The notes beneath the pieces were generated by a model. The model saw only the letters and a program-made list of their open reading frames with translations, was not told the origin of the DNA and made no database searches. Shown here one piece after another: positions 3,781 through 26,751 of a stretch of 49,413 bases of DNA. The DNA is from Paramuribaculum sp. (GTDB lineage: Bacteria > Bacteroidota > Bacteroidia > Bacteroidales > Muribaculaceae): positions 1 to 49,413 of the forward strand of contig JAIDJW010000166.1 of NCBI GenBank assembly GCA_029052015.1, written 5' to 3'. Positions within the stretch are counted from its first letter, which is position 1, and every line of letters begins with the position of its first letter. Both the position numbers and the translations under genes were made by a program.

Positions 3781-3782
3781 TT

Positions 3783-12700: not shown

Positions 12701-15700
12701 GGAGAATACGCCGGAAGATGCTGCGCGCATAGCGCGGGATATGGTTTGGCGTGTGCAGGCTGAGGTGGAAGTGCGCCGCAACCGTAGGCAGTTATTGAGC
12801 GACGTGCTTGCCGACAATGACGTCGAGGGACAGCTGGAGAGCGCTCCTACCGTGTCGGAGGGCGTGAGTGTAAAGAGTGCGGGCGGACGTATCAGCTATA
12901 GCGCACAGGGTCATCTGCCGGATGCTGCGGCGGGTGAGTTTGCGTATGTTGAGCGTCAGTTCAGCCGAACGGGTGAGTTTGGATTCACTGGCAACAGTGT
13001 GATCAGAGACCGCGGCGATGTGGCGTATATGTTCAGGGCGCTGGAGGATTATTCGATAGAGCATGTCTTTGCGGTGTTTGTGAAAGATGGTCGGGCGAAT
13101 GTGTTGCATATAGGCATGGGTGGACCGACGTCGAGTTTCGCCGACATGGGAGCCGTGAGGGCTGGCGTGGATGCCTTTGGCGCGGATGCGATATATCTGG
13201 TGCACAACCATCCGTCGGGGTACCTTGTGTCAAGTCATCCCGACCGGGCTCTGATGAAGACGCTGGAGACGGCATTTGGCGACAAGGTGCCGGTGGAGGG
13301 CATAATCATCGACACGACATCGGGGCGCTACACGGTGTTTGACAGCCAAAGTGACCGAGGCAGCTTTGACCGAGACAGGAGCGGAGCGGACTCGGCTGTG
13401 GATGTGATGCAGTTTGACCGGGTGGAGCGCCATGGCGGAGGTAGCGAGCGCATCGCAATAGCGAATTCGGATGATGTGGCACGGTATGTGGCGGAGCGAC
13501 GTCTTGGCGGCGGCGATAAGGTGAGCTACCTGATACTGTCGAACAGAAACGAGGTGGTGGGCAATTTCCACACCGGCTACAGTTCGATAGACGAGCCGGG
13601 GCTTGCCGAGGAGCTGGCGAGCGTGGCGACGAAGTATGGCGGCACGCGAGTGATAGTGTATGGCAACACGACTGTGAAGGGTGCGTCGGCTCTCGGCGAT
13701 GCGGTGAAGAGGCATAGTGCCGGTGGCATAAGGCTGCTGGACGCTATGGCGATAGATGACCGCAGAGTTGTGAGTGCGAATGACGAGGGATATCTGCAGG
13801 ATGAGGGCGCGACGACGTATGGCGTAGCGGATGCCGGGGCGATGTCGGGAACCGACCAGTTAAAGCGCGATTCAGTGGCTTTGGAACGTATGCCGGCAGG
13901 GATGCGCTCGGCGGCTGAGGCATATCTGGCAGAGTATCCCAGCGCTCCGCTCGTGATGGTTCGTGATGAGGCAGATGTTGATTCGCTGGAGTTGCCGGAG
14001 AGTGCTAAACGCGCCTTGCTCGCAGTGATGAATGAGGCAGATACTATGGGTGGTTATTGCAGATATGATGGGAAAATTTATATCTTTGCAGGCCACGGAG
14101 CAGAAAACGAGATACCTAAGACGCTGCTGCACGAAAATGTACATGGCGTGTTCGGGATTCTTGGAGCAAAAGCCGATGAGTTTGCGGACGTTTTTGCGAG
14201 CAAGGTGAGCAAGCTGCCGAATGCAGACGGCTTTATGGGCAAGCTGTATGAGGCACTGTCTGACGGATATGCCGGTGATCGTGTAAACGAGGAGTTTCTG
14301 GCATATGTATTGTGTTTTGCACATGAGCACAAGTCGATGCGAAAGGCGATCGTCAGGCCGCTGAGTGAGAGTGAAAAGGAATTTTTTCAAAATGAAATTT
14401 TAAACAGACTGTATGGCACAGACAAAGAGAGCGGGCTGGACCGAGGATGGCATGCTTCATCGGTTCACGAAGGAGAGCAAAAAGATAATGGACGCCCTGG
14501 AGACGGAGGCGAGCAAGTTCGAGCAGGAAGAGCCGCCGGAGGAGTAGATGTTTCCGCCGACGACGATGTTGTTTATCGCACTTCATCCGAAATCGACAAT
14601 GAATACCCGAATTGGCTCGACGGTACCACAACCGAGAGCGGAAAGCACTCAACGCAGGTAGAGGGTACTCGCAAAACTTATGGAAAAGTTGGCGATTGGA
14701 TAGAGTCTAATCTTGGCAAAGACGTAGCCATACTTGATGCATCTTCCGGCATGGGCTACGGTACGGCAGACCTGCGCGAACGCGGTTTCAATATTGAAGA
14801 TGTTGAACCCTATCAGAGCGAACAACGCAAGGCCAATAACCCAGCCACCTATGACAGCTACGGCAAGATAGACAAACAGTATGACTATATCATAAGCAAC
14901 GCTGTCCTAAACGTTATCCCCGATGATTGGCGACGCGATGTATTGCACGACATGGCTTCTCGCCTTAAGGCTGGTGGACGTTTGTTTATCAACACCCGAA
15001 AAGCCGGAGAAGAAAAGGGCATCAAGGACAAAATTGAACTTGACTCTCCGCGTGAGGTACTCGTAAAGCGCAACGGAAAAATTGCATCATATCAAAGGTT
15101 CTTTACTCCGAAAGAGCTTAAAGAATGGGTGGAGTCTGAACTTGGCGGAGAATATGCCGTCGAGATAGCGAATGAACGCAATTCCGGGACGAAAGGATTA
15201 GCAGCCGTTGTAGTCACACGAAACGAAACTGTCAACAGGCAGGGCGACGGCTACGGCGCATACAGCGACGCAGAGGTATCGTTTGCCAACGACCCTGTTT
15301 CAAAGGTCATGGGCAAAAACCGTTTCAGCAAGAAACGTCAGGCCGAGTTTGCCGCCCGTGAGCGTCAGCGAATGGTGACCCGTATTCAGGAGCTTGCCGA
15401 GCGTATGCGCCTCGACAACGTGGAGATTATCACCGACGCTTCACAGCTTGAGGGCAAGAGAGCCAAAGCAAAAGGCTTCTACAACAAGCGCACTCGCAAA
15501 ATCACTATCGTTATCCCGAATAATGTCAGCACTATCGACGCAGAGCAGACACTTCTCCATGAAGCCGTGGCACACTACGGCCTACGTCAGCTTTTCGGTG
15601 AGCAGTTCAATACGTTCCTCGACAACGTATATGAGTCTGCCGACGAGAGCATACGCCGCAAGATAGCAGAAATGGCAGCTCAAAACGGCTGGGACTTCCG

Positions 15701-18700
15701 CACCGCAACCGAGGAATATCTTGCAGGTCTGGCCGAAGATACCAACTTCAGCGAGGCGCAGAGCTATACAGGTTGGTGGTCGAAAATCAAACGCCTGTTC
15801 CTTGATATGCTCGAAAGCATAGGCTTCGAGGGCTTCCGCGATAAGGTGGGTGTTGTCTTGACCGACAACGAGCTTCGCTATATCCTGTGGCGCAGCTACG
15901 AAAATCTTGCAGAGCCGGGACGCTACCGCAGCATACTCAGCGAGGCCGCAGACGTGGCAAAGCAGAGTGATCTGAAAGTCGGCAACTATGCAGAGCAAGG
16001 TGTTGAAGCAGAATATGCCGCAGAGGGCGACTTGTACCGTTCAGGCGACTTCTCGCCCCGTGACCGTGTGTTTGCCCGCTATGCCTACGAGAGCATGGTG
16101 AGAAGCGGCGGCTATCAGTTCAAAGAGGCCGTTCAGGATAGTATGTTAGGGCTTAAGAAACTCTATCAGGCAATCCTCGGTCGAAAGACCCGAATTGAAG
16201 ATGTCCCCGGCTTCGAGAACGCCTACCTGTTTGAGAACCGCATGAGCAGTATGAATGCCGGTGAACAGCACGAATACTTCCAACGCTACATGCAGCCGCT
16301 TCTGCAAGAGATTGGCCGCATAGCCGGAGCCAACAAGCGCAAGCGCAGGGAGCTGACCGACTACATCATGGCAAAGCACGGCCTTGAACGCAACGAGTAT
16401 ATGCGCAACGAGGCAGCAGCCAACGGCGAGGACACCGACCGCGACTTTGCCGGTCTTCTCGGACTGACAGGCGAAGCCGATTGGCAAGCCGCCGAGGACA
16501 CCGCACGGCAGTGGGTTGACGACTACGAGGCGATGTATGACACCGCCGCCCTGTGGGAAGCTATCAACAAGGCGACAAAGGCCACACTCGAAAAGGTATA
16601 TCTTTCAGGCATCATCAGTAAGGATACTTACGAGAAGATACTTGGAATGTATGACTACTATGTGCCTCTGCGTGGTTGGAACGAGAAAACGAGCGATGAG
16701 GTGTATGGCTACCTGACAAGCAAGGACGGACCTCTCGGCGGCAGCATCATGAAAAAGGCAGAAGGCCGTGAGAGCATGGCCGACGATCCCATTGCCACAA
16801 TAGGCATGATGGCCGACGACGCAATCCGTCAGGGCAACCGCAACCTTATGAAGCAGCGTTTTCTCAACTTCATACTCAACCACCCCAGCGACGCTGTGAG
16901 TGTGCATGACCTGTGGCTCGAATACAACGACGTAACCGACGAGTGGGTGCCTGTCTTTGCCGACGTTGAGGAAACCGACACAGCCGACGTTGTGGAGCAA
17001 AAGGTTAAGGACTTCGAGGAACGCATGGAAGCTCTACGCACCGCCGAGCCTGGCAAGTATAAGAGAGGTCGCGAGGCGCAGCACATACCCTACAAGGTTG
17101 TGCGTGGCAATCTCCGCGAACATCAAATACTCATCAAGCGAAACGGCCGCACATTCGTCGCTACCATAAACGGCAATCCGAGAGCGGCACAGGCAATCAA
17201 CGGCCTTACCAATCCCGACGTTGACCAGAACGGCGTTGTCGGCAATATGCTGAAAGCCGGTACATGGGTCAACCGTCAGCTATCGGCATTCTACACCACC
17301 CGAAACCCGGACTTCGTTGTGGGCAACTTCTTCCGCGATATGTTGTACTCCAACTGTATGACATGGGTAAAAGAAAGCCCACGTTACGCCCGACGCTTCC
17401 ACAAGAATTTTGCTCGTGTAAATCCGCTCGTAATGCGTCGTCTTCTCGGCAAGTGGGAGAAAGGCACACTCAACATGAGCAATCGTATTGAGAGCCTTTT
17501 CTATCAGTTCATGAAGAATGGCGGTGAGACCGGCTACACCAACGTCCGCGACATCGAGGGCCACAAGAGAGCTATCGCCGCCGAGCTGAAGAAGCAAGGC
17601 AGCACTGGCCGCAGGGTATGGACGGCACTCGGTATGCAGTTAGACCTGCTCAATCGTGCCGCCGAGAACTGCGCCCGCTTCGCCGCTTTCGTTACCTCTC
17701 GCGACTTTGGCCGAAACATCGACCGAGCAATCTACGACGCAAAGGAAATAAGTGTCAACTTCAACAAGAAAGGCAGTGGCGGCAAAATGGTAAACGCTAC
17801 CGGCCAAACCAAACTCGGCAAGACAGGCGCATATCTTAGCGGCGGTGGCCGTCTCCTGTATGTGTTCTGGAATGCCGGTGTTCAGGGTATGACCAACTTT
17901 GGCCGTCAGGCTAAATTGCATCCGGCAAAATTCTCCGTTGGTGCAACCGCCCTGTTCACTCTCGGCTACGTTATTCCAATGCTTGCCCAAATGTTAGGCG
18001 GTGGAGACGGTGACGACGACGACAAGAACGCATACTACAACCTGCCTGAATACGTCCGTCGTTCAAACATCTGCTTCTATGCCGGCGACCAATGGATAAC
18101 AATCCCCCTGCCTATCGAGTATCGTGCCATGTACGGTATGGGTGAGCTTGCACACGGCGTAATCAGTGGCAACGAGCGTTACAGCAACACCGAGCTTGCG
18201 CGCCAAATGGCATCGCAGGTATCGCAGATTTTCCCGATTGATATGCTCGAAGGTGGAGGCGGTGTATCTCCGTTCATACCGAGTGCGGCCAAGCCGTTCA
18301 CCGAAGCCTACATCATGAATAAGGGCTGGACAGGCTTACCCGTCTATAAGGACACTCCGTTCAACAAGAACATGCCCGAATGGACGAAAGCCTACGCAAG
18401 TGCCGACAAACATCTTGTGGACTTCGCCAAGTGGCTCAACGAAACATCGGGCGGCGACGACTTCAAGAAAGGCTCTATTGACATCAACCCTGCCAAGATT
18501 GAGTATCTACTCAACGGTACTTTCGGCGGTCTGTTCACTTTCCCCAACAAGTTGAAGAAATCCGCAGAGACAGCTTTTGGCGATCGAGATTTTGAATGGC
18601 GAAATATGCCGATAGCCAACCGCCTTATCAAGTCAGGTGACGAGCGCACCGCCTACCGTAAACTGCAAAACGAATACTTCAAATACCAAGAAGAGTATAA

Positions 18701-18989
18701 GGAAACGGGGCGATTGATGCGCAAATATGAAAATGCAGATGCGGATGGCATTTTCAGATATGCTGAAAAGATTGCTTTTATGGAATTGTCACCAGAATAT
18801 GCCCGTTGGGAAATATTTGATACATATAAGGCTGACATTGACGCATATCGCGAAATGATAGCCACGGAAACCAATGCAGAGAATAGGGTGCAACTCGAAG
18901 CGGAGATGTACGCCGAAATGCGCGAGCTTGTGAATGCGCTGCATAATCCGGACGATTATTTCAAGGATGCCGCGGATAATCAGAAATAA
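3783..18989 (+). CDS. Giant polyvalent protein (5,068 residues), likely injected with phage DNA
   Basis: One unbroken frame. Visible regions in order: two 30-residue repeats (5-64); coiled coil (~230-330); hydrophobic Gly/Ala-rich segments (~420-470, ~685-720); charged helical stretch (~1270-1390); ParB-like domain of the polyvalent type (~1400-1585, GNNRSEAL at 1507); zinc ribbon (C1983, C1986, C2001, C2004); LPD5-like motif EDFGEKLAGARKD (~2152); three small repeats ending EAxxWLxxN (~2400-2560); LPD1-like zincin HEWWH at 2685; RadC/JAB-like domain, HNHPSG at 3141; second zincin HENVH at 3450; class I methyltransferase-like domain (~3620-3820); third zincin-like HEAVAH at 3926; conserved C-terminal LPD38-like part (~4100-4740) with a hydrophobic helix near 4715. 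Polyvalent proteins are thought to be delivered with invading DNA to counter host defence. Position after two ejection-like genes and before the portal agrees. Domain names are by eye. Codon use changes between blocks. Confidence 0.85.
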   Translation: MAQNDKNLQGVYNTLKKEGYNPPAYDEFVKDMQDDKNLQGVRNTLVKHGYTPPEFSEFKSDMFGAPAVDVQESASAAEGPRQPMLNPEVAAEMEGRPLEGGWQPTVEQYVSGMEAVRQGYDAAKRSMDVREAAFGHMVELNTAEGQRKVRDARERAMMHGVAGEVVGARRHAAKAENDTEGGAVVEQPAEVAVTPNNVVARDVKLNQQTGQWETVWQLPDGSLTTNQLEAERWQGDVNRIVDQRRKAEQAADMSVGAQIRRAEAELAELRKQLDESASRVHREWAEDYEKNDAPLAAVFAANTYVPRQTADKENSALRVAIRQREEQLKNLYEERDRQIGKDVGFWRGFGRTVSDVRTWDFGTGDLLDAMTMLNADKYAAPDATEGEKRAGQEMLKAIYDNQQVEEMYGGNASFWNRAGVMTGYMPSFMLDFALTGGGYKAINVAGKAAARGSVKLIGEAAIKEMTELGVKAYAKKYGIRGVGRMAENWTIKALGTTADDLLIRAPLMTNTVQAGKTTADIIDRKLGNVVVDGNGNYDFSNDETWGSAIWQGEANAIIENYSEMFGAHLDSVVPALAKTFGGKRISGMLARANASGFGKILETTRKRFQSLGVSDYFGEVSEEYYGQLWRTMLNLDDAYTNVPVYDEQGNQVLDAQGNPVYERKNLLFTGKFHGDIWGGMALSMGLMGFSKYTMAGAAYGGQRMISGMAYANMKHQVNVADRVAAEIFTPERWEPIREIIDNTTNDDIGTLAESMVNDPNLSDEERAAVMEYMERSLNLRGLNLGAMAQSRGAEDEEGVELPTPVELDMDNEFSQSYIDGYEASSPQEMADAQNMYEYQRQRAEGMFEPSVLESLDGNPVATLMDMSQTGLYSQEEIDAARDYINAKTVRDGILQRVNDNIDEQIAQSDAMINARVNPASGMIQPAIMGLDDRQVYVVGGSLAINPDGTIDREASDESIVVRDAVTGEVEFADPKSIVSAGEAIDPEMEKAMAVDNIRQQAAQAAADALNGVLPLNPGDVVPIIAGGSPTTFTIVGPAIDEQTQSPIPDTFVVEWLNGIQTSLTREQIQAYADEEAIARLNNFEQQRGAERAQQHATEAEALRPQFALNDEFTILNDNGTPIRGSITAELDEDGIVEIHTEEPINGNHVNRFTPAELEEMFDTYNGQPVNIPVPETEETVPNIEENPNIAGQKSENSTETVPNPEETVEIEAQQSALSRVPVDEQGQPKYEEADPDTAWYAIVEQAQGDEATAAEVVADIVAERQDDFNAAEKALSKTKEGKPEKRKKGDPAPTMAERIAAKNAAKEALAEAQAIRDRAKAALDHWKSIAGTKQRRENERRSAEDAEARRRAAERAAEEARLRAEREEAERIEREALNGVPDWNVDTPADARARGYRRNGPQKVDRPEIIDNHAIGNSVEVKFGDDVMPTGNIAIIEASQLQPSHRDGQRNPYHFLDEAQPKERKDAASRFAAAKIAEGMRPEEITSSVTAFTGAPSINARGEVIQGNNRSEALRLMYENYAQSAESYKQYLIDHAAEFGLTPEAIEAFEQPVLVNMLDVSDENAITLGQYVAQDTESGGIERIKPRNAVQKMGDKIRTFANLLLRSADDEATFAQLVDANGINVLKWMNQQGYITNTQYASAFDSKGNLTAEAANDLKGIMYQSIFTGGSTRLEEMFNKMPAKAQRAILATAFRDHDSAYADRMISEIQQSIIAFDALMSFKQFHDASNAEATQNAVEAWKKQFAFDDVSGEPYLPSETFSNFALALAAMYKGNTQKHIQSVFNMMYDIVQGTEQDNLFEAADKTPKPLAEAIRRVLNLEYQPIVNPTTDNGTNGSTVLDVDSEDGQDGRPGSSGNTDGAEQNPQAAEPADGGTGTASDSGQGGEVATEEATDNATEQHNFDDLDDSALAERIDVADDDWTEGEGQTPTYKRTITIDGKHKVIQIDEPDGNGFYTGSRFEYQGENFGILTEVIDLIDGNTVCPVCGKRHIPNYKNQDVVCPQCGTDLSVFRQIDQLSDEEAANVANNLGLFNEDGTPKSLQELVKAAEAEVNTDPTEAQKEAHEVDDGGLDKIKRQAEREDGQLLILPSEATEEAGALSGPTFDSPSDGKDSVLPSDKQENSSESLADADGARARAPQGTKPTDGAGEQRIEDFGEKLAGARKDALREVAKSIENVSVQSLVELPISKAFKRPNLKKMVESGAISDEDAVMAEAIMQGIVYAQRKPVLTRRQSSKKEIAAWAEKTYKGIELLGEILSGDESRKSAALASYRSELEAERERANEFVARLREYNPGRVYGDVTEMPDGVSVTARVLAGIGHRPGEKVVLPLTRVSLSSTMQSYDVEAAGKQGALWFKRRHDTLDEAIETMVLAAKLARGDKDVELPQAHFGVQGVGTRHSEPTGKFVVAYMQGNRYNVTTKTFDSEVEAEAFAKEKGGRVHAEQRYTSDYDGYVNTVVNPLTGNKHVIGETFGSRVEAVAWLDENHDEVNRLALEAISNEMGTKGEKRAHFYVTSSCSRNAGKVVYSVVEDNKASAWPFVQDFDSRKEAEEWLAMNLERLEQERKARRDRERSIVYYNTKGERSGADFRNGQDASPEMFGEAFGFRGVQFGNWTNDADRQAALNEAYDALHDMAAALGISPRAVSLDGELGLAFGARGTGRAAAHYEPVEVVINLTKTQGAGALAHEWWHALDNYLSRRAGISMGYASERHGIEKMHPEVSAALDGLMSAISGSDYAKRSADKGDYWGRRTEVMARLFETWIAERLRGNGQSSPFLAPGASESAQRLYQRFNYVAYSANERRVAKREGREPAIMSEDEFYKTPQSLSGYPYPTREEVAEFDSRLGAFFGALAAREVSSGSMAEERGGRYGRRNVTNAGLNLFDWADAEERLRRRGTEPTEESRAAEDANAALDSYAASYMEYLERSEGLDAELSKTDAESTEGRELQERLAHEEALLLEQRGLLEDALREYYARENTPEDAARIARDMVWRVQAEVEVRRNRRQLLSDVLADNDVEGQLESAPTVSEGVSVKSAGGRISYSAQGHLPDAAAGEFAYVERQFSRTGEFGFTGNSVIRDRGDVAYMFRALEDYSIEHVFAVFVKDGRANVLHIGMGGPTSSFADMGAVRAGVDAFGADAIYLVHNHPSGYLVSSHPDRALMKTLETAFGDKVPVEGIIIDTTSGRYTVFDSQSDRGSFDRDRSGADSAVDVMQFDRVERHGGGSERIAIANSDDVARYVAERRLGGGDKVSYLILSNRNEVVGNFHTGYSSIDEPGLAEELASVATKYGGTRVIVYGNTTVKGASALGDAVKRHSAGGIRLLDAMAIDDRRVVSANDEGYLQDEGATTYGVADAGAMSGTDQLKRDSVALERMPAGMRSAAEAYLAEYPSAPLVMVRDEADVDSLELPESAKRALLAVMNEADTMGGYCRYDGKIYIFAGHGAENEIPKTLLHENVHGVFGILGAKADEFADVFASKVSKLPNADGFMGKLYEALSDGYAGDRVNEEFLAYVLCFAHEHKSMRKAIVRPLSESEKEFFQNEILNRLYGTDKESGLDRGWHASSVHEGEQKDNGRPGDGGEQVRAGRAAGGVDVSADDDVVYRTSSEIDNEYPNWLDGTTTESGKHSTQVEGTRKTYGKVGDWIESNLGKDVAILDASSGMGYGTADLRERGFNIEDVEPYQSEQRKANNPATYDSYGKIDKQYDYIISNAVLNVIPDDWRRDVLHDMASRLKAGGRLFINTRKAGEEKGIKDKIELDSPREVLVKRNGKIASYQRFFTPKELKEWVESELGGEYAVEIANERNSGTKGLAAVVVTRNETVNRQGDGYGAYSDAEVSFANDPVSKVMGKNRFSKKRQAEFAARERQRMVTRIQELAERMRLDNVEIITDASQLEGKRAKAKGFYNKRTRKITIVIPNNVSTIDAEQTLLHEAVAHYGLRQLFGEQFNTFLDNVYESADESIRRKIAEMAAQNGWDFRTATEEYLAGLAEDTNFSEAQSYTGWWSKIKRLFLDMLESIGFEGFRDKVGVVLTDNELRYILWRSYENLAEPGRYRSILSEAADVAKQSDLKVGNYAEQGVEAEYAAEGDLYRSGDFSPRDRVFARYAYESMVRSGGYQFKEAVQDSMLGLKKLYQAILGRKTRIEDVPGFENAYLFENRMSSMNAGEQHEYFQRYMQPLLQEIGRIAGANKRKRRELTDYIMAKHGLERNEYMRNEAAANGEDTDRDFAGLLGLTGEADWQAAEDTARQWVDDYEAMYDTAALWEAINKATKATLEKVYLSGIISKDTYEKILGMYDYYVPLRGWNEKTSDEVYGYLTSKDGPLGGSIMKKAEGRESMADDPIATIGMMADDAIRQGNRNLMKQRFLNFILNHPSDAVSVHDLWLEYNDVTDEWVPVFADVEETDTADVVEQKVKDFEERMEALRTAEPGKYKRGREAQHIPYKVVRGNLREHQILIKRNGRTFVATINGNPRAAQAINGLTNPDVDQNGVVGNMLKAGTWVNRQLSAFYTTRNPDFVVGNFFRDMLYSNCMTWVKESPRYARRFHKNFARVNPLVMRRLLGKWEKGTLNMSNRIESLFYQFMKNGGETGYTNVRDIEGHKRAIAAELKKQGSTGRRVWTALGMQLDLLNRAAENCARFAAFVTSRDFGRNIDRAIYDAKEISVNFNKKGSGGKMVNATGQTKLGKTGAYLSGGGRLLYVFWNAGVQGMTNFGRQAKLHPAKFSVGATALFTLGYVIPMLAQMLGGGDGDDDDKNAYYNLPEYVRRSNICFYAGDQWITIPLPIEYRAMYGMGELAHGVISGNERYSNTELARQMASQVSQIFPIDMLEGGGGVSPFIPSAAKPFTEAYIMNKGWTGLPVYKDTPFNKNMPEWTKAYASADKHLVDFAKWLNETSGGDDFKKGSIDINPAKIEYLLNGTFGGLFTFPNKLKKSAETAFGDRDFEWRNMPIANRLIKSGDERTAYRKLQNEYFKYQEEYKETGRLMRKYENADADGIFRYAEKIAFMELSPEYARWEIFDTYKADIDAYREMIATETNAENRVQLEAEMYAEMRELVNALHNPDDYFKDAADNQK
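3795..3974 (+). repeat. Two 30-codon repeats at the start of the giant gene
   Basis: Residues 5-34 and 35-64 align as DKNLQGVxNTLxxxGYxPP followed by xxxEFxxDM, with a period of exactly 30 codons. Similar short modules (LYxALxxxGYxxxxYxxF type) occur at the ends of other Bacteroidota phage virion proteins as I recall them. They may be a docking tag; this is inference. Confidence 0.8.
10103..10136. repeat. Perfect 13-bp inverted repeat inside the giant gene
   Basis: ATCTGACGGCAAA (10103-10115) is followed after 8 bp by its exact reverse complement (10124-10136). It encodes the low-complexity linker SPSDGKDSVLPSDK just upstream of the codon-use change near 10.23 kb. No T-run follows on either strand, so it is not a standard terminator. 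It may mark a recombination seam or be an mRNA hairpin. Confidence 0.75.
14413..14547 (+). pseudogene. Possible relic of an overlapping 44-codon gene inside the giant gene
   Basis: In the frame one base after the giant gene's frame, an ATG at 14413 opens 44 codons ending with TAG at 14545. The peptide begins MAQTKRAGWTEDGMLHRF, is rich in Glu/Lys and ends EPPEE, like a real short acidic helical protein. The giant protein's own frame here reads as poor low-complexity Gly/Glu/Ala sequence. The ORF ends exactly where codon use changes and the methyltransferase-like insert begins. I infer an ancestral giant gene ended near here, overlapped by a small gene, and was later fused to more coding sequence. 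It may not be translated today. Confidence 0.4.
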
Positions 18990-19016: not shown

Positions 19017-20978
19017 ATGAAGGAAGAGAGATTGATGAGAATGAGTCGGGTCAGCCCGAGGGTGGCTGATGAGATGGATTCGGTTGCATACGAGCGCAGT
19101 CGGGGCGAAGACCGTAGAGCTTTTGACATACTGATGGAGGCGCGCGTCTGCTGGGACGCTATGGCTGAGTTCAGAAAGGAGCGCGAGCGCAACAAGCGTT
19201 ACGCTTATGGCAAACAGTGGCTCGACACCATTGAGGTAGACGGGTGCACCATTACTGAGGAGGAGTACATTGCGCGCCAGGGCAATGTGCCGCTGAAAAA
19301 CAATGTGGTTCGCCGACTTGTGCGCAATGTCCTCGGGGTGTATCGCAGTCAGTCGAAGGAACCGACCTGCTATGCCCGTGACCGCGATGAGCAGCAGCTT
19401 GGCGAAACTATGACGGGAGTGCTGCAGTATAATATGCAGCTGAACCGTATGAACGAAGTGTTGGCCCGCACGATGGAGGAGTTTCTTATTAGCGGCCTGA
19501 TAGTTCACAGGAAATCATATGGGTGGCGCAATGACAGGCTCGATTGCTGGACGGACTATGTAAATCCTAACAATTTCTTCATAGACAGCAATATGCGCGA
19601 CTTTCGTGGTTGGGATGTTACGCTGCTCGGCGAGGTGCATGACGTTTCGTTTGGTGACCTGTGCAGTCAGTTTGCCGAGAGTCCGGCAGATTACCGGCGT
19701 CTTCGCGAGATATATTCAGCGGCCCGTAGCGTCAGGAGTCTGAATCTTTGTGCCGAGCGCTTCGGGTATAGTCGACTGCGGAGCTATGATTTTATGATGA
19801 GCAGTGACCCGACGCGCTGTCGTGTAATCGAGGTGTGGCGTAAGGAGAGCAAGGCCCGCTTTCGCTGTCACGATTATAACACCGGTGATGTTTTCAAAAT
19901 TGACCTGGAGGACAAAGCCGATCTCGTTGACCGAGTAAACGAGGGGCGACTGCAGCGTGGGCGCGCCTTGGGTGTAGCGGACGCTGACATTCCGTTGATT
20001 AAGACGACGTGGATGATGGATAACTATTGGAGTTACTATTACCTCTCGCCATTCGGCCATATTCTGAAAGAGGGCGAAACACCATACGAGCACAAAAGCC
20101 ATCCATACGTATTCCGGGCCTATCCATTCATAGACGGCGAAGTTCATTCGTTTATAGCTGACGTGATAGACCAGCAGCGCTACATTAACCGACTGATTAC
20201 GCTGTTTGATTTCATTATGAGGGCAAGCGCGAAGGGAGCTCTACTTTTCCCTGAGGGTGCGCTCCCTGACGGCTATTCAATGGACGATATTGCTGAAGAG
20301 TGGAGTCGATTTGATGGACTGGTTGTATACAAGCCTAAGGCGGGCGTGCCGGCGCCTCAGCAGATTGCGAGCAACAGCACGAACATCGGCATCACGGAGC
20401 TGCTGAACATTCAGCTGAAGTTGATGGAGGACATATCGGGCGTGAACGGAGCGCTGCAGGGCAAACCCGGCTTTTCGGGGCAGAGCGCGGCAATGTATAA
20501 CCAGCAGACGCAGAATGCGACTACGTCGCTGCTTGACCTGCTTGAAAGCTTCTCTGACTTTGTCAAGGAGGGCGCGATTAAGGATGTCAAGAACATGCAG
20601 CAGTTCTATGACACCAAGCGCGTGTTCAATATAGTTGGTAAGAACGCCCAGATAGAGTATGACCCGCCGCGAATACGCGACGTTGAGTTTGATCTATCTA
20701 TTATTGAGAGTACGTCGACGCCGGCATATCGTCAGCAGGCCTCGGCATTCTTGACGCAACTTTGGTCGGCAGGAGCTATCTCCGTAGAGCAGTTGCTCGA
20801 GCATGGCGACTTCCCGTTTGCCGACGAGTTGCTTCAGTCGATACGTTCGCAGAGAGAACAAATGCAGCAAGGCCAGATTCCGCAGGGTGTGTCACCGCAG
20901 CTTATGCAGCAAGTACAGCAAGGCGCAAACCCGCAGGCTATGAGTCGCCTGCAGGAACAATTAGCAATCAGAAATTAG
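19017..20978 (+). CDS. Portal protein (podovirus type)
   Basis: A 653-residue protein placed and built as a portal. It has an N-terminal helical region with the segment YGKQWLDTIEV, a middle region giving NFFIDSNMRDFRGWD, then DVIDQQRYINRLITLFDFIM. The segment GVNGALQGKPGFSGQSAAMY precedes the long helix TSLLDLLESFSDFVKEG, and the tail is Gln-rich. The portal forms the twelve-fold ring at one head vertex, the DNA entry and exit channel and the docking site for terminase and ejection proteins. The gene begins 27 bp after the giant gene and probably shares its transcript. It ends 8 bp before the convergent minus-strand packaging block. Confidence 0.8.
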   Translation: MKEERLMRMSRVSPRVADEMDSVAYERSRGEDRRAFDILMEARVCWDAMAEFRKERERNKRYAYGKQWLDTIEVDGCTITEEEYIARQGNVPLKNNVVRRLVRNVLGVYRSQSKEPTCYARDRDEQQLGETMTGVLQYNMQLNRMNEVLARTMEEFLISGLIVHRKSYGWRNDRLDCWTDYVNPNNFFIDSNMRDFRGWDVTLLGEVHDVSFGDLCSQFAESPADYRRLREIYSAARSVRSLNLCAERFGYSRLRSYDFMMSSDPTRCRVIEVWRKESKARFRCHDYNTGDVFKIDLEDKADLVDRVNEGRLQRGRALGVADADIPLIKTTWMMDNYWSYYYLSPFGHILKEGETPYEHKSHPYVFRAYPFIDGEVHSFIADVIDQQRYINRLITLFDFIMRASAKGALLFPEGALPDGYSMDDIAEEWSRFDGLVVYKPKAGVPAPQQIASNSTNIGITELLNIQLKLMEDISGVNGALQGKPGFSGQSAAMYNQQTQNATTSLLDLLESFSDFVKEGAIKDVKNMQQFYDTKRVFNIVGKNAQIEYDPPRIRDVEFDLSIIESTSTPAYRQQASAFLTQLWSAGAISVEQLLEHGDFPFADELLQSIRSQREQMQQGQIPQGVSPQLMQQVQQGANPQAMSRLQEQLAIRN

Positions 20979-21359: not shown

Positions 21360-23453
21360 TCAAAAGGTAGCGGCAGAAACGGGTTTGCGGCGTTGGGATG
21401 TCGAGCGGTTTTGAGTGCGAGGAATGATTTTTGGTGCGTCCATTTCGTAGTAGCAGATATGGAGACCAATGGCCCGTGTCATCAGGAGGTCGTCGTGCTT
21501 GCCGACTATTGCGCCGTATGAGCCGTTCTGCCTCTTTTCGTAGGTTTTATATTCATCAAGACAGCGCCTATCGCGCTCAATATACATTGCGTCACGAACG
21601 GCCTTGACGAGAGTGGAGATAATCATTGGTTTGGTGGCCACATTGGTGTGGAAGCCATATTTTTTTGGAGCGCCTTCGGCAATCTGATCTTCTGACTGCT
21701 TGCGGGCATATAGGTTGCTATATACATCCTTTATTTGATTAAGAATGAATTGCGATTGGTCGCCATCGACCTGGCGCTCGCGGTCGTGTGTTTCAAGGGT
21801 ATTGCTTTCGATGACGAGCAGAGCATTGTCGTAGAATGCCGCTATTTGTGCGGCTTTCCAGGCAATGCGGTCAATGTCGTCGTGGCCATACCACTGCGCA
21901 ACGACCGAGGGCTTTCCGCCTTCAGCCATATATAGGCGGTCGAACACTGCGATTACTGAGTAGTCGGCCTTGTGCGAGCGTCCGCCGATGTCGACGACAA
22001 CAAGGTAGCGGTTAGTAACCCGCTCATCGGGGTCGATTTCGGGGAGTGCCCAGACCCATAGCATTCCTTGTTTATCTTCCATGAACCGCAGTCCGACGAG
22101 AGCTTCGAGGCCTTCGTCGCGGTCGGCATAAACTTCGCCGATAAATTTGGGAGGACGGCAGGTGGGCTTCAGGGCGTTGACCTTGACATCATTGAATACC
22201 CTCGAGCCTGAGTGAACGAACGCCTCGACGTCGTCGGTGGGGTATTCGGATGCCATAACGTCGTGAGAGTCTTTGCCGGCCCGTTCGGTAACATACCACT
22301 TGATAGCCTGCAGGGTGGCTCCCTCGGTCCATAGCCACCATAGATAGCAACCGGGCTCTTCTCGGTTGGAGGCGACATTGCGGCTAAGACGGTTGGAATA
22401 TAACCAGGTGGCAAATTCACGCAGTTCAGCGTCAGACATAGGCGTAGAGTAAAGGTCAATGTCGTACCAGGAGATGAAGAGTGACGAGAACTGCGACTCG
22501 CCGCGCTTCGCCGAGTCATATTCCCGTTGGAAAAAGTTGCCGGTACCATTGGCCGTTGACTCGTAGATTATCATTGTGTAGGGACGTAGCAGCACACCTG
22601 AGCAGGCCGAACGCACAACCGAGTCGGGGGTTTTGAGGTCCGTAGGTGACCATAGGCCGACCTCAGAACAGTGGACGAGGGCATAGGCATCGCCGCGCAG
22701 TGCGTCGGGGGCCTCGTAGGACGCAATCGTAATGGTACAGTCACGCTGGGGCACTTTCTTATAGTCGCCAGACTGGCCAACGTTAACCATTTTTGGCTCG
22801 CGCTCATTGTAGTCCTCTCCTAACCTGTAGAGCATGTCGAGGGGATATGCTTCGAGTGCGCGGTCATACATCGCCTTGATAGCGAATGATGTCTTTTTTG
22901 TTTGTGATACAATTACAGAATTCAATCCGACTTTGTGGACGAGTTGCAGCCAGGCCATATATAGCTGGGAAGTTGTTGAGCCTCCCCATTGGCGGGCTTT
23001 CAACAACACTAAGCGAATAGGTTTCGCCGCCAGCCTCATCTCCTCAAGCTTATGGACGAAGCGACGCTGGGGGCGAGTGAGGCGGAATGGAATCTCACCT
23101 TCGCCCGGTTCCTTGGACAGGATTCGAATGAATGTGGCGGCCCAAAATGGGAAGTCATGACGGTTTCGGAGTCGCACAAACTGGTCAATGACTTTGAGGC
23201 GGTCGGCATCGGAGTAGGCAACGCATAGGTCATGTGTAATGAATTTGCGAATTGAGCCTGCATTTTTCAGACGTCGGACGAGCGGGATGGACTTCATTGA
23301 CACAGGTAGATATTGCACTCTCAACGGAAAGTCCTCGATGACATATTCAAACCTTTCGCCAACCGAGCCGAGCCCGGTGACGGGGTTAAAGGGCGCATTG
23401 ATGGCATTAAGGCGCCTGGCATTTTCGTTGATTATGTCGTCGACGGGAGACAC
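21360..23453 (-). CDS. terL: Terminase large subunit
   Basis: DNA-packaging motor of 697 residues with an N-terminal ATPase and a C-terminal nuclease. Walker A-like sequence LLKARQWGGSTT lies at ~150-161, and ALVHCSEVGLWSP is consistent with the Walker B/catalytic Glu region. The nuclease domain shows LVVVDIGGRSHKADYSVIAV, VIESNTLETHD and a late acidic pair in GKHDDLLM. The start is GTG at 23453; no nearby upstream ATG exists. A heptamer repeat lies directly upstream of this start. The gene sits on the strand opposite to portal and capsid genes, with a rhomboid-type gene just before it. Confidence 0.9.
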   Translation of the reverse strand: MSPVDDIINENARRLNAINAPFNPVTGLGSVGERFEYVIEDFPLRVQYLPVSMKSIPLVRRLKNAGSIRKFITHDLCVAYSDADRLKVIDQFVRLRNRHDFPFWAATFIRILSKEPGEGEIPFRLTRPQRRFVHKLEEMRLAAKPIRLVLLKARQWGGSTTSQLYMAWLQLVHKVGLNSVIVSQTKKTSFAIKAMYDRALEAYPLDMLYRLGEDYNEREPKMVNVGQSGDYKKVPQRDCTITIASYEAPDALRGDAYALVHCSEVGLWSPTDLKTPDSVVRSACSGVLLRPYTMIIYESTANGTGNFFQREYDSAKRGESQFSSLFISWYDIDLYSTPMSDAELREFATWLYSNRLSRNVASNREEPGCYLWWLWTEGATLQAIKWYVTERAGKDSHDVMASEYPTDDVEAFVHSGSRVFNDVKVNALKPTCRPPKFIGEVYADRDEGLEALVGLRFMEDKQGMLWVWALPEIDPDERVTNRYLVVVDIGGRSHKADYSVIAVFDRLYMAEGGKPSVVAQWYGHDDIDRIAWKAAQIAAFYDNALLVIESNTLETHDRERQVDGDQSQFILNQIKDVYSNLYARKQSEDQIAEGAPKKYGFHTNVATKPMIISTLVKAVRDAMYIERDRRCLDEYKTYEKRQNGSYGAIVGKHDDLLMTRAIGLHICYYEMDAPKIIPRTQNRSTSQRRKPVSAATF

Positions 23454-23457
23454 TTGT

Positions 23458-23492
23458 GGAATTAGGAATTAGGAATTAGTAATTAGTAATTT
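23458..23492. repeat. Heptamer tandem repeat at the large terminase start
   Basis: GGAATTA is repeated three times (23458-23478) and followed by two diverged copies beginning GTAATT. The tract overlaps the last codons of the rhomboid-type gene and forms the whole leader before the GTG start of the large terminase. Copy number changes here would alter the terminase leader and the rhomboid C-terminus. Confidence 0.8.
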
Positions 23493-23966
23493 TTGAATAG
23501 TCACAATGATTATGGACGTCACCATGCAATAAATGTGGAGCAGGCCGTTTACTGACGGGAAGATGAATCCAAGGACCAAGTAGGGCGTGAAGAATGCGAG
23601 ATAGCGCAGCAGTCGCAGGGCACCCTGACCAACAGGCGCAAGTAGTCCTATAAGCGAATAGCAGACAGCCGAAAGCCCGACTGTTGGCGTTGAGAAAAGG
23701 ACGCAATCAGGTGCAGTAACCGATATGAAGAAGGCTATTGCGAGTTGCAGCGTGGTGACAGGATATAAGAACACCAGCGAAAGGAAACACCATAGATTCA
23801 GTATAGTGTGAATGGCTGAAGCGTGGAACAAGGAGAATAGCAATCTGTTGCTCGCGGGACTCCCGACGTATATTCCATAAATCTCCGGGGATGGATGGAG
23901 GCAAAGCGCGATTGAAATCAGCGCGACGAGAATGCCTGAAGTTTTTTGAATCGTTCGCGGTGCCAT
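23469..23966 (-). CDS. Rhomboid-type intramembrane serine protease
   Basis: A 165-residue membrane protein with about six hydrophobic helices, the minimal rhomboid core. The second carries FHASAIHTILNLW, matching the rhomboid HxSxxHxxxN motif (H48, H53, N57). The fourth carries GLSAVCYSLIG, matching the nucleophile motif GxSxxxY (S99). The last carries H144 (NGLLHIY) as partner of the Ser-His dyad. Rhomboids cut transmembrane segments inside the membrane. The ATG at 23966 overlaps the upstream gene by 49 bp. The gene lies between a small packaging-type gene and the large terminase, and 1.3 kb from the capsid gene, whose product has a transmembrane-like N-terminus. The family call is from motifs; the substrate is unknown. 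Confidence 0.7.
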   Translation of the reverse strand: MAPRTIQKTSGILVALISIALCLHPSPEIYGIYVGSPASNRLLFSLFHASAIHTILNLWCFLSLVFLYPVTTLQLAIAFFISVTAPDCVLFSTPTVGLSAVCYSLIGLLAPVGQGALRLLRYLAFFTPYLVLGFIFPSVNGLLHIYCMVTSIIIVTIQKLLITNS

Positions 23967-24358
23967 TGTTTTCGGGCATGTAGAATTATAATTTTGGCGG
24001 TAAATGCAGAGACATAGTGGCTGGGGGCTGGCTGCGATATTACTTCGCGAACCAGATGAGGCGTAGGATCGCCGGGCCGAAGGTTGCGCAGCTCGCAATA
24101 GCGTCGAAATATCTCCTCGAACATAGCGCGCTTGTTAGCTCTCATAGAGAGTATTGAAGCGCCTTTTTCCATTGCGGTTATGACTTTCGAGGCGCGTCGC
24201 GTGCTGATGAAAAACTGAGGAGCCGGTTGGCGGGCTGCGTGAGCGAAAGCTTCGCCCATATTGATGTGTTGCGTAGTTAGCAGATAGCGGCGATATTCGC
24301 GCAGCAGACTTTCGGCTCTACAATCAGCATATTCTGATTTACTTCCGTTTGGTTTCAT
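23918..24358 (-). CDS. Small basic conserved phage protein with internal QPAP repeat
   Basis: A 146-residue basic helical protein. Two parts resemble each other: RQPAPQFFISTRRASKVI in the first half and SQPAPSHYVSAFTAKIII in the second, with QPAP, an aromatic, Ser, Ala and Ile aligned. A central segment reads RANKRAMFEEIFRRYCELR. I recall similar proteins in Bacteroidales phages next to terminase genes but know no proven function. Size, charge and operon position before the large terminase would fit a DNA-binding packaging factor, a rival to the gene at 1514-1930 as small terminase. It is first in its operon, behind a TATCTTTG box. Confidence 0.7.
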   Translation of the reverse strand: MKPNGSKSEYADCRAESLLREYRRYLLTTQHINMGEAFAHAARQPAPQFFISTRRASKVITAMEKGASILSMRANKRAMFEEIFRRYCELRNLRPGDPTPHLVREVISQPAPSHYVSAFTAKIIILHARKQWHRERFKKLQAFSSR

Positions 24359-24428: not shown

Positions 24429-24466
24429 CGGGAGAATATTTATAACGAAATTGAACTAAATTGACT

Positions 24467-25249
24467 ATGGCTGAAAATGAGGAGGTTAAGAGTAAGCGCC
24501 AACTGTTGACAGAGCGAATGCAGAGTCGTTATCCTGATATGGACTTCAGTGATGACGAAGCTTTGTTTGGCCGCATTAGCGACGATTTTAACGAAAACGA
24601 CGAGAGGTTGGCAGGGTTCGAAGAGCGTGAAGGTAAGCTCGCCGAGATGTTTGCCGCCGATCCGCGTAGCGCGCGCCTTATGACAGAATGGCGCAACGGA
24701 GATGACCCCGCTGTAGCGCTGGTGCGTCTTTTCGGCGAAGATATTGCCGAGGCCCGCAATGACCCCGAACGTCAGGAGGCCATGAAGGAGGCCAATCGCG
24801 AGTATATGGAGCGTGTGGCCAAGGAGAAAGAATATCAGGAGCAGTATGAGGCTAACCTTGAAGAAACACTGAAAATAATTGAGGAAAAGAAAGCTGCCGA
24901 CGGCCTGAGTGACGAGCAGATTGACCAGGCAATGGGATGGCTGATGGCTGTCGTAAAAGATGCCGTTCTCGGCAAGTTCAGCGCGGAAACAATCGATATG
25001 GCCATAAAGGCTCAGAACTATGAGCTTGAGGTTGAGAACGCCCGCCAGGAGGGAGAGGTTCTTGGTCGCAACGCCAAGATTGAAGAGCAGCTGCGCAAGC
25101 CTAAGAAGGGGGACGGCACTGCTCAGCTTGACGGAAAGAACGGCGGGACGCCTCGCCCGGCCGCAAGGCCTGATTTCGGAGCCATTGACCGTTTCAGTAG
25201 TAGTTCTGACATCTGGTCGCGCGGCGGAGAGAAGCGCCGCCGCAATTGA
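24467..25249 (+). CDS. Putative capsid scaffolding protein
   Basis: A 260-residue, strongly acidic and helical protein with long Glu/Lys coiled-coil stretches, and a basic end (GGEKRRRN). An acidic helical body with a basic capsid-binding tail, placed directly before the major capsid gene, is the classic scaffold layout. It would guide procapsid assembly and then leave. The ATG at 24467 was chosen over a TTG two codons earlier. No protease domain is visible in it. The call depends mainly on composition and position. Confidence 0.65.
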   Translation: MAENEEVKSKRQLLTERMQSRYPDMDFSDDEALFGRISDDFNENDERLAGFEEREGKLAEMFAADPRSARLMTEWRNGDDPAVALVRLFGEDIAEARNDPERQEAMKEANREYMERVAKEKEYQEQYEANLEETLKIIEEKKAADGLSDEQIDQAMGWLMAVVKDAVLGKFSAETIDMAIKAQNYELEVENARQEGEVLGRNAKIEEQLRKPKKGDGTAQLDGKNGGTPRPAARPDFGAIDRFSSSSDIWSRGGEKRRRN

Positions 25250-25311: not shown

Positions 25312-26751
25312 ATGAAGGAGAAATTAACCAAACTTGGCCGCTATATGTTCGGCCTGATTCTCACACTCGTGGCTTTTACCGCGGGAGCATCTTCGGGTGT
25401 AATTCTTGCCGCTGCGTCCGACCTGCCCGATGCCGGCCGCATTAACTCCGGGGCAGACGGTTCGGGCGATAATGGTGGCATTGCGACTGAATCGCAGGGT
25501 CGCGCCGATGGTGACGCCGGCTTCTATATGTCGGATGTTGACCAGCGCATTGTCAAGATTCGTCCGATGGCTACCCCTGTTGACCAGATTAGCCGGTATG
25601 CTCGAAATGAAAAGACCGATGCAATGGAGGTCACCTTTTACAGTGTAGGCACACGACCTACCAGTTGCAAACTCAGTACTGAGGTGCACGCACAAACGTC
25701 CGGAGCTTCTATTTCGTTGCCTGTTGACGATGTCAATATGTTCACGTTGGACGACACGATTCGCGTAGTCGGCGTCAAGGGCGTCACCAATGAGAAGGGT
25801 GTTGCCTATCCGACGGATGATGAGAATGTGCCGGACCTGGTTCTTTGCGTATGTGGCAAGAATTCCGACAGTAATCTGCCAACGGTTTACGCGGTTAATG
25901 GCAAACTCGACGCAAATACCAATCAGAGCACGTTGGTTCCTGCCATTCCCGCGGGTACGACTCTGATTCGTATGGGTAAGGCGTGTGGCGAACTTGATGT
26001 GCAGACCGGCCGCTTCAACAACATCCCCACCAAGGAGACCCAGTATTGCCAGAACTTTATGATTCAGGTCGAACAATCTACGTTTGACAAGATTGCCAAG
26101 AAGGAGGTTGACTGGACTTTCTCGGACATAGAGGAGGATGGTGTTTACGATATGCGCCTTTCGCAAGAGAACACCTACCTGTTTGGTGTGAAGCGTCGTA
26201 TCAATCATGTTTCCAAGAATGGCATGGAAACTTGGTTCACCGGCGGTATCTGGTATATGGCTGGCAAAGACATTGAAGTTGGCAGCTGGGATGATACCAA
26301 GAAATGTGCGGTGATTACCGACGATAATCTCGTAGATATTACCAAGAAACTGTTTGTCGGCGATGGCGCAGGCAATAAACGCAAGGTGCTGCTCTGCGGT
26401 TCCGATATGCTTTCGGCGTTCTCAAAAATCAAGAGCGAAAAGTTCCGTCTGAAAGATACCGTAGAGGTGTGGAACCTGAAGTTCAAATCGTGGGACACCG
26501 ACTTCGGTGAAGTGCTCACGATTCATCACGAGCTTATGGACGAGAACGGCATGTCGGATTGCGGCTTCGCAATTGACCCTGAGTATCTGGTGAAGAAAAC
26601 CCATATCAGTTGGGGCCGCAACGTGCTTGACCTGAAGACTGCCGGAGTGCGTAACACTAATGCGGTGGTGATTCAGGAGGTTGCCTGCCTATATCTGCGC
26701 TGCCCTAACGCTCATGCCCGAATGCGTCTGGCTAAGGCTCCGACTCCTTGA
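25312..26751 (+). CDS. Major capsid protein with a transmembrane-like N-terminus
   Basis: A 479-residue protein in the capsid position after the scaffold gene and before a strong terminator, probably the head shell subunit. The body is rich in beta-type segments and includes QISRYARNEKTDAMEVTFYS and VKKTHISWGRNVLDLKTAGVR. Unusually, it begins with a positive stretch (MKEKLTKLGR) and a hydrophobic run at ~12-36 containing AGASSGVILAAAS, like a signal anchor, followed by a Gly/Asp/Ser-rich linker. The ATG at 25312 is the natural start, as codon use stays normal through this region. Cleavage of the N-terminus during maturation would be expected, but no prohead protease was recognised other than the nearby rhomboid-type protein. 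Confidence 0.75.
   Translation: MKEKLTKLGRYMFGLILTLVAFTAGASSGVILAAASDLPDAGRINSGADGSGDNGGIATESQGRADGDAGFYMSDVDQRIVKIRPMATPVDQISRYARNEKTDAMEVTFYSVGTRPTSCKLSTEVHAQTSGASISLPVDDVNMFTLDDTIRVVGVKGVTNEKGVAYPTDDENVPDLVLCVCGKNSDSNLPTVYAVNGKLDANTNQSTLVPAIPAGTTLIRMGKACGELDVQTGRFNNIPTKETQYCQNFMIQVEQSTFDKIAKKEVDWTFSDIEEDGVYDMRLSQENTYLFGVKRRINHVSKNGMETWFTGGIWYMAGKDIEVGSWDDTKKCAVITDDNLVDITKKLFVGDGAGNKRKVLLCGSDMLSAFSKIKSEKFRLKDTVEVWNLKFKSWDTDFGEVLTIHHELMDENGMSDCGFAIDPEYLVKKTHISWGRNVLDLKTAGVRNTNAVVIQEVACLYLRCPNAHARMRLAKAPTP

Follow-up and report, generated by a model that had tools for sequence, protein, structure and literature searches.

Gene organization of the capsid locus

The window, meaning the whole stretch of 49,413 nucleotides analysed here, corresponds to contig C75 in a draft genome (G000) of 2.35 Mb and has phage genes on board, which follow one another in the order portal, terminase, rhomboid, PHROG 27246 gene, putative scaffold and capsid. 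The P22-like portal protein (19017-20978, forward strand) was recognised with PHROGs and Pfam, and the large terminase (21360-23453, reverse strand) with the PHROG search. The next gene on the reverse strand (23472-23966) encodes a small membrane protein, predicted from motifs, profile and structural model to be a phage-type rhomboid intramembrane serine protease. Its start is overlapped by the PHROG 27246 gene (23921-24358, reverse strand), to which no function is assigned. A putative scaffold gene (24461-25249, forward strand, PHROG 22323) lies directly upstream of the capsid gene (25312-26751, forward strand); the scaffold label comes from its place and look, PHROG 22323 itself carrying no function. 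Among the nine neighbouring window proteins searched with Pfam and PHROGs, none matched a soluble prohead protease.

The capsid gene starts with ATG and encodes 479 residues, with the N-terminus MKEKLTKLGRYMFGLILTLVAFTAGASSGVILAAASDLPDAG. The product matches Pfam SU10_MCP (E = 2.3e-31) and PHROG 26635 (E = 3.4e-276), and the latter alignment begins at residue 5, so that the family itself includes the N-terminal leader described below. An AlphaFold model of moderate confidence (mean pLDDT 69.6) was matched by Foldseek to the HK97-fold capsids VP1, phicrAss001, SU10 and HK97. The protein is thus an HK97-fold (SU10-like) major capsid protein by sequence and by fold, and we annotate it as a putative precursor.

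A conserved leader precedes the capsid domain

Residues 1-35 of the capsid protein (25312-25416, forward strand) form a predicted membrane-targeting leader, with a basic n-region (residues 1-10) and a hydrophobic core (about residues 11-33) that contains A24-G-A-S-S-G29 and is followed by a linker rich in Gly, Asp and Ser. The earlier note had described such a basic start, a hydrophobic helix holding AGASSG and a linker on the capsid protein, and the reading frame confirms this description; in the AlphaFold2 model a helix runs across residues 2-28. The peak hydropathy over 19 residues is 2.04, and none of 1311 60-residue stretches taken from the capsid bodies of relatives reaches 1.7, a comparison on which chance hydrophobicity was rejected. 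An N-terminal peak above 1.5 was found in 5 of the 43 window ORFs examined, the capsid ORF included.

The leader is present in all 77 IMG/VR relatives that have the gene start within the contig (out of 80 relatives), and it is kept in relatives down to 44% capsid identity, with G25 invariant in 18 aligned rows. Its end is conserved as GAxxGVxMAxA-[STA]-x-LPDAG. In the window, the conserved leader end comprises residues 25-36 (GASSGVILAAAS, 25384-25419, forward strand), with the conserved PDAG (residues 39-42, 25426-25437, forward strand) right behind. In 87 distinct in-register blocks (7 of 101 leader rows are out of register) the consensus residue is found 66 times for G25, 64 for A26, 72 for G29, 64 for V30, 62 for M32, 73 for A33, 77 for A35, 80 for L38, and 85 for both P39 and D40. 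The capsid protein of phage BF1-TP2, 44% identical to that of the window, has a hydrophobic start with GATTG and no AxA; an IMG/VR search with this protein as query confirmed no relative.

In-frame ATG, GTG or TTG triplets occur within the first 90 capsid codons at codons 1, 12, 20, 73 and 86 only, so there is no usual start at the leader boundary of the window. An internal translation start at this boundary was therefore rejected as a general explanation, although methionine at position 32 is common in the relatives.

The neighbouring gene encodes a rhomboid with an intact catalytic set

Rhomboid proteases have a Ser-His dyad, with a GxSG-type motif and an HxxxN region, in a six-helix core. 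The window protein has 165 residues counted from ATG (a longer ORF starting with TTG and extending to 24098 is possible) and carries HxxxxHxxxN, GLSA and a later His. All 61 distinct relatives share H109, N113, G153, S155 and H200 (alignment numbering), and 60 of them also have H104. Taken alone, the window protein has no Pfam Rhomboid match at E 0.1; in the family, this profile matches 14 of 16 members at E 0.01, and a PDB search with the family profile yields GlpG at E 3.7e-10. The structural model (pLDDT 90) is also matched to GlpG by Foldseek, with probability 1.00, TMq up to 0.69 and a best E-value of 1.1e-3, none being at or below 1e-3. By motif, profile and fold the protein belongs to the rhomboid proteases, as a predicted member: the gene is a rhomboid with an intact catalytic set, and proteolytic activity is predicted from sequence and model. 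The rhomboid-type gene that the earlier note had placed near the capsid gene is thus real.

BLAST detected the gene in the window and in 74 of the 80 IMG/VR loci. Its strand and its position with respect to the capsid gene are the same in these loci, and it usually precedes that gene by about 1.3 kb. Of the six loci without it, L049, L059, L060 and L067 stop short of the place, L002 turns into unrelated sequence near the contig end, and L066 has a lone capsid gene amid host genes. Two sequenced Bacteroides phages, BS-TP4 and BF1-TP2, carry both a leader-type capsid gene and the rhomboid, which their GenBank records already name as such.

Leader and rhomboid are kept or lost together in close relatives

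Scanning GTDB genomes yielded 77 capsid loci. Those of group B, mostly from rumen Prevotellaceae and with capsid proteins 58-67% identical to that of the window, include leader-bearing and leaderless members, showing that leaderless capsid proteins exist within the same family. The leaderless proteins begin at or past the leader end, several of them at the presumed cleavage point just before PDAG (MSTKMNLPDAG, MSNMTNLPDAG, MSTTSSPLPDAG) and others later (MATENNLYQGG, METVQRFKSG). No remnant of a leader was seen by eye, in any frame, in the 150 bases upstream of 13 leaderless genes.

These starts bear on the possibility that the leader stays uncut, as a permanent anchor in the membrane or the inner shell, with the rhomboid-like protein serving as partner or chaperone. 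It is known that iRhoms, which are relatives of rhomboids, work without proteolysis, and the helix modelled over the leader would suit an anchor. However, the rhomboid catalytic residues are kept throughout, with a single histidine missing once, and several leaderless relatives start at the boundary and not elsewhere, so that we regard an uncut leader as most improbable.

A whole-genome search with the rhomboid profile gave E-values of 1.4e-33 or lower in all 16 genomes with a readable leader, and found the rhomboid in none of 13 leaderless genomes (12 of group B, and G414), where the best matches were partial (E 0.007). The genome of the leaderless locus L109 has no rhomboid match at E 0.01, and the leader-bearing L112 has the rhomboid. 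The capsid and rhomboid genes share a contig in 14 of the 16 group B leader genomes, at a distance of 14-23 kb, and are on separate contigs in G409 and G410. Among the contigs recovered with group B capsid queries, 15 were taken as new, and 14 of these (some of them near-copies) have leader and rhomboid; the remaining contig, L345, has a leader, and no rhomboid is visible within its 11.4 kb.

In a tree computed from 50 capsid domains with the leader removed, seven changes of the leader were counted, and the rhomboid is concordant in all 7 independent pairs (p = 0.0156), whether L066 is included or not. Several leaderless rows are on short contigs or at the edges of draft genomes and are possibly incomplete; a strict subset, which leaves out L066 and seven leaderless rows on account of short contigs, contig edges or odd cases (L109, L123, L128, L131, L136, L138 and L142, with L109 and L136 as the odd cases), gives 2 concordant pairs out of 2. 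On the starred branches of a wider tree of 164 rows, 4 pairs are concordant, none is opposite and 1 shows no difference. L162-L191 and L084 were first dropped as copies of other rows; the wider tree was then reduced from 189 rows by removing identical rows and rows of fewer than 300 residues, and L065, L089, L103, L124 and L137, having no anchor, were left out of the trees. We coded the leader and rhomboid states ourselves, counting them per prophage and not per genome, and 8 of the 164 rows are of unknown state.

The same loci speak to the alternative that leader and rhomboid merely travel together in one head module, the rhomboid cutting a host protein or another phage protein. This would fit the capsid and rhomboid genes of group A, which are mostly within 2.5 kb of each other, and the occurrence of rhomboid genes in the unrelated phages DLP3 and DLP5, that of DLP5 being termed a moron gene in the paper describing this phage (PMC7326821, PMC5834331). 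In group B, however, the two genes are concordant despite the distance between them, which makes linkage alone a poor explanation, and all seven independent changes agree. In addition, the rhomboid of leader-bearing group B loci overlaps the PHROG 27246 gene, and this gene is intact in the leaderless G398, where the reading frame used by the rhomboid start in other loci stays open over just 64 codons; it is also present, with no rhomboid behind it, in the leaderless G416, G418 and G419. All four leaderless, rhomboid-less loci keep terminase, scaffold and PHROG 27246 genes, which indicates that the missing part is the rhomboid and not the module. Coincidence or linkage alone is considered very unlikely. 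The joint retention and loss of leader and rhomboid in close relatives suggests instead that the capsid protein is trimmed by the rhomboid.

From the rhomboid to the capsid start

The association was also examined in reverse, scoring the best 8 rhomboid candidates per genome. In the order to which the window belongs, the phage-type rhomboid was found in 2 of 393 genomes, that of the window and G019, in each case beside a leader-bearing capsid gene; the capsid protein of G019 is very distant and its leader ends in MTADAT. In the genus of G398, the rhomboid was found in 23 of 398 genomes, 18 of which already had a capsid match: the start is readable in 17 of them, all with a leader, and is cut off in G431. 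The five rhomboid genomes with no capsid match (G501, G578, G722, G798 and G808) constitute a blind test. In G501, G578 and G798 a capsid gene of SU10-like type adjoins the scaffold gene and encodes a leader (e.g. MKRLFSFHLLVSCILCMLAVLTGGGMAMAEVPTVPD in G578), and in G722 and G808 the contig border is reached before any capsid gene. For this genus overall, the capsid start is readable in 20 of the 23 rhomboid genomes, and the leader is present in 20 of 20. Leader, rhomboid, terminase and the PHROG 27246 gene are found even in G545, although its capsid protein reaches a score of just 61 bits. No prophage combining the rhomboid with a leaderless capsid protein was found among those counted.

Distant leaders without this rhomboid

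The association does not extend to all distant relatives. Besides the decayed L066, 36 distant leader-bearing rows of the 164-row tree have no phage-type rhomboid (for L157, this state is based on its 3.4 kb contig alone). The earlier note had proposed that co-occurrence across related phages would support its reading, and that relatives keeping the hydrophobic N-terminus and consistently lacking the rhomboid gene would speak against it. The close relatives support the first, in the full and strict tree comparisons and in the reverse search; the 36 distant rows are in part a case of the second.

In 30 of these 36 rows neither terminase nor portal was found in the fetched stretch. The six with matches are L154, L156, L207, L220, L225 and L226; terminase is present in all of these except L207, and three of the five terminase-bearing loci also have a portal. 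Inspected gene by gene, L197, L158 and L161 have capsid and scaffold genes between host-looking genes (a fumarase by Pfam in L197, and tsf-like and antiporter-like genes by eye in L158 and L161), so that they resemble chromosomal capsid clusters more than phages. The 36 leaders are also more hydrophobic (median peak 2.36 vs 1.97, p = 1e-7), in a rough comparison, as the measured stretch differs between the two groups. Five distant capsid proteins (L215, L216, L218, L221 and L222) have neither leader nor rhomboid in the prophage.

An ordinary, Pfam-type phage rhomboid was considered as a substitute in the distant leader genomes and rejected: Pfam Rhomboid matches are present in all 39 genomes searched, and those above the cut-off are on other contigs or at least tens of kb from the capsid gene, with G019 and G190 as exceptions to this distance rule. 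G190, although coded as rhomboid-minus, may have a rhomboid of this type: a Pfam Rhomboid match of 3e-10 falls in a frame of 374 codons (L292:739-2159, G190:C199), which adjoins a PHROG 27246 gene and is about 16 kb from the leader-bearing capsid gene.

Some of these loci have a recurrent organization. A scaffold-like gene is accompanied by a capsid gene with leader and by a small number of head-like genes in L192-L214, L217, L219, L155 and L157-L161 (e.g. L197:6636-8937 and L161:5863-8074), and the fetched stretches of these loci have no terminase or portal match, with the exception of a portal in L207. In 15 of 28 loci, a gene family of fumarase size occupies one and the same place, and only the member in L197 was identified as fumarase. 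Among the other capsid loci, L109 (7136-12355) has a leaderless capsid gene, a scaffold gene and two downstream head-like genes with host-metabolic-looking neighbours and no terminase match. L066 (5590-7314) has a capsid gene amid host-metabolic-looking genes, near a transposase-like ORF, with no scaffold, head-like genes or terminase match. Both are possibly decayed or reduced prophages.

Cleavage-site motifs and membrane topology

Sec signal peptides have a basic n-region, a hydrophobic h-region and small residues at positions -3 and -1. The leader has these features, in the form recognised by signal peptidase I: of 89 in-register leaders, 73 have a strict AxA at A33/A35, and AxA or small-x-small lies near the leader boundary in 90 of 91. 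Such features would predict that the mature protein is exported. The same stretch agrees with the rule given by Strisovsky and co-workers in 2009 for rhomboid substrates, with a large hydrophobic residue at P4, a small one at P1 and a hydrophobic one at P2' (PMC2941825): with P1 at A33, this pattern is kept in 71 of 89 leaders (alanine being scored as hydrophobic at P2'), and the next best position reaches 18. Other elements of the rule agree less well. According to the same paper, Asp is deleterious at most other positions, and Asp occupies leader residue 34 in 21 of 87 cases. For prediction, the paper further expects the motif close to the N-terminus of a helix with N-out orientation (PMC2941825), and the motif found here is located where the hydrophobic stretch ends on its C-terminal side. 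The rhomboid motif overlaps AxA, and the sequence cannot separate the two enzymes. The reading of the capsid N-terminus as a rhomboid substrate, put forward in the earlier note, is partly supported: co-occurrence in close relatives speaks for it, and the 36 distant rows and a signal-peptidase motif in most of the leaders, to which the note makes no reference, speak against it.

All 91 leaders tested are more positive on their N side, which predicts an N-in orientation and a capsid domain outside the membrane, on a side not expected for the assembly of a dsDNA phage capsid. Cleavage by either rhomboid or signal peptidase I needs the helix end at the outer membrane face. The main puzzle is that the charges place a capsid domain of about 440 residues outside, yet such a domain should not cross the membrane. 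The capsid domain might fold before export, with the leader inserting alone, or a further factor might keep it inside.

The leader could be a Sec-type signal sequence cut by the host signal peptidase I at A33-x-A35, with the rhomboid acting beside it, e.g. in destroying the released leader or clearing stuck precursors. This would explain the AxA counts and, equally well, the joint loss, and many of the distant leaders in rhomboid-less loci end in an A-x-A-like manner, by eye. However, the conservation of G25, G29, V30 and M32 exceeds what is generally known of signal peptides, BF1-TP2 has leader and rhomboid with no AxA, Sec export of a capsid subunit of a dsDNA phage makes no obvious sense, and a host enzyme alone leaves the phage rhomboid without a reason. 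We consider cleavage by signal peptidase I possible, although rather unlikely.

A proposed role for the rhomboid in capsid assembly

Rhomboid cleavage is favoured as the release step, since the rhomboid is singled out by the joint loss and by the reverse test alike. The capsid protein is probably made in precursor form, with a membrane-targeting leader of about 35 residues that the phage's own rhomboid cuts off, a proposal drawn from comparative sequence analysis. Against it stand the 36 leader rows without the rhomboid, an AxA that fits the host signal peptidase I equally, and the N-in charges. The rhomboid would cut at the small-residue end of the leader, between residues 33 and 36, and the mature protein would start at about [A]-S-D-LPDAG. 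The precursor, in contact with the membrane, would be held by the leader in a form unable to close into a shell, and cleavage would license assembly. In procapsids of the HK97 type the N-terminal arm faces inside, so a tether of this kind would need to be cut before shell closure. Leader and rhomboid would form a module that can be shed as a whole, with joint losses numbering from at least two (strict subset) to seven (all rows). We give about an even chance to a scheme in which the precursors of a tailed-phage capsid are tethered to the membrane and a virus-coded intramembrane protease frees each subunit for assembly.

By analogy, the system may be likened to two known things at once, the trimming of capsid proteins by phage proteases and the activation of TatA by a rhomboid. 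Prohead proteases of the HK97/T5 type are soluble enzymes confined to the prohead interior, and the segment that they remove is a scaffold. The present case has a membrane leader, a separate putative scaffold gene and a membrane-embedded protease, and the first two of these features argue that the leader is not like a delta domain. Nevertheless, the proposed trimming of the capsid N-terminus by a phage-coded protease in head maturation resembles that of the HK97/T5 delta domain, as treated in a 2011 review (PMC3185693). In Providencia stuartii, the rhomboid AarA is reported to remove an N-terminal extension that blocks formation of large TatA complexes (PMC3712462), and a small residue at P1 (PMC2941825) is a feature shared with the capsid leader. 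Unlike TatA, a bacterial membrane protein with an N-out orientation and an extension of 8 residues, the substrate proposed here is a capsid subunit with a leader predicted to be N-in.

Two other comparisons can be drawn with the account of the 2011 review. The coat protein of the filamentous phage f1 also has a leader cut by a peptidase after membrane insertion, as proposed here (PMC3185693), but it is a small membrane-spanning protein processed by a cellular enzyme, whereas the present protein is an HK97-fold subunit of the tailed-phage type. The head of the tailed phage T4 is built at the inner membrane, as may be the case here; in T4 a separate membrane protein contacts the connector (PMC3185693), whereas in the present system the membrane segment is part of the capsid subunit. 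That review describes membrane association of proheads during assembly as not demonstrated beyond T4 (PMC3185693). In a 2025 rhomboid review the words phage, virus and viral are absent by word search (PMC12615303), and a literature search for rhomboid with phage or capsid gave, among the matches listed, no paper on a link between a rhomboid and a capsid leader.

If the proposal is true, a clear substrate can be named for a rhomboid in a widespread group of gut phages, a membrane step is added to what is known of HK97-fold capsids, and head maturation would be controlled by intramembrane proteolysis, with a rhomboid acting on a viral structural protein. The pairing can be tested in BS-TP4 and BF1-TP2, the sequenced Bacteroides phages that carry both genes.

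Two further features of the window genome were observed. A second, leaderless capsid gene of the same family lies on another contig (L221, G000:C118:8859-10094) and has its own portal downstream. In the window, an ORF of 5070 residues (3777-18989, forward strand) lies directly upstream of the portal gene and has the look of a giant multi-domain phage protein.
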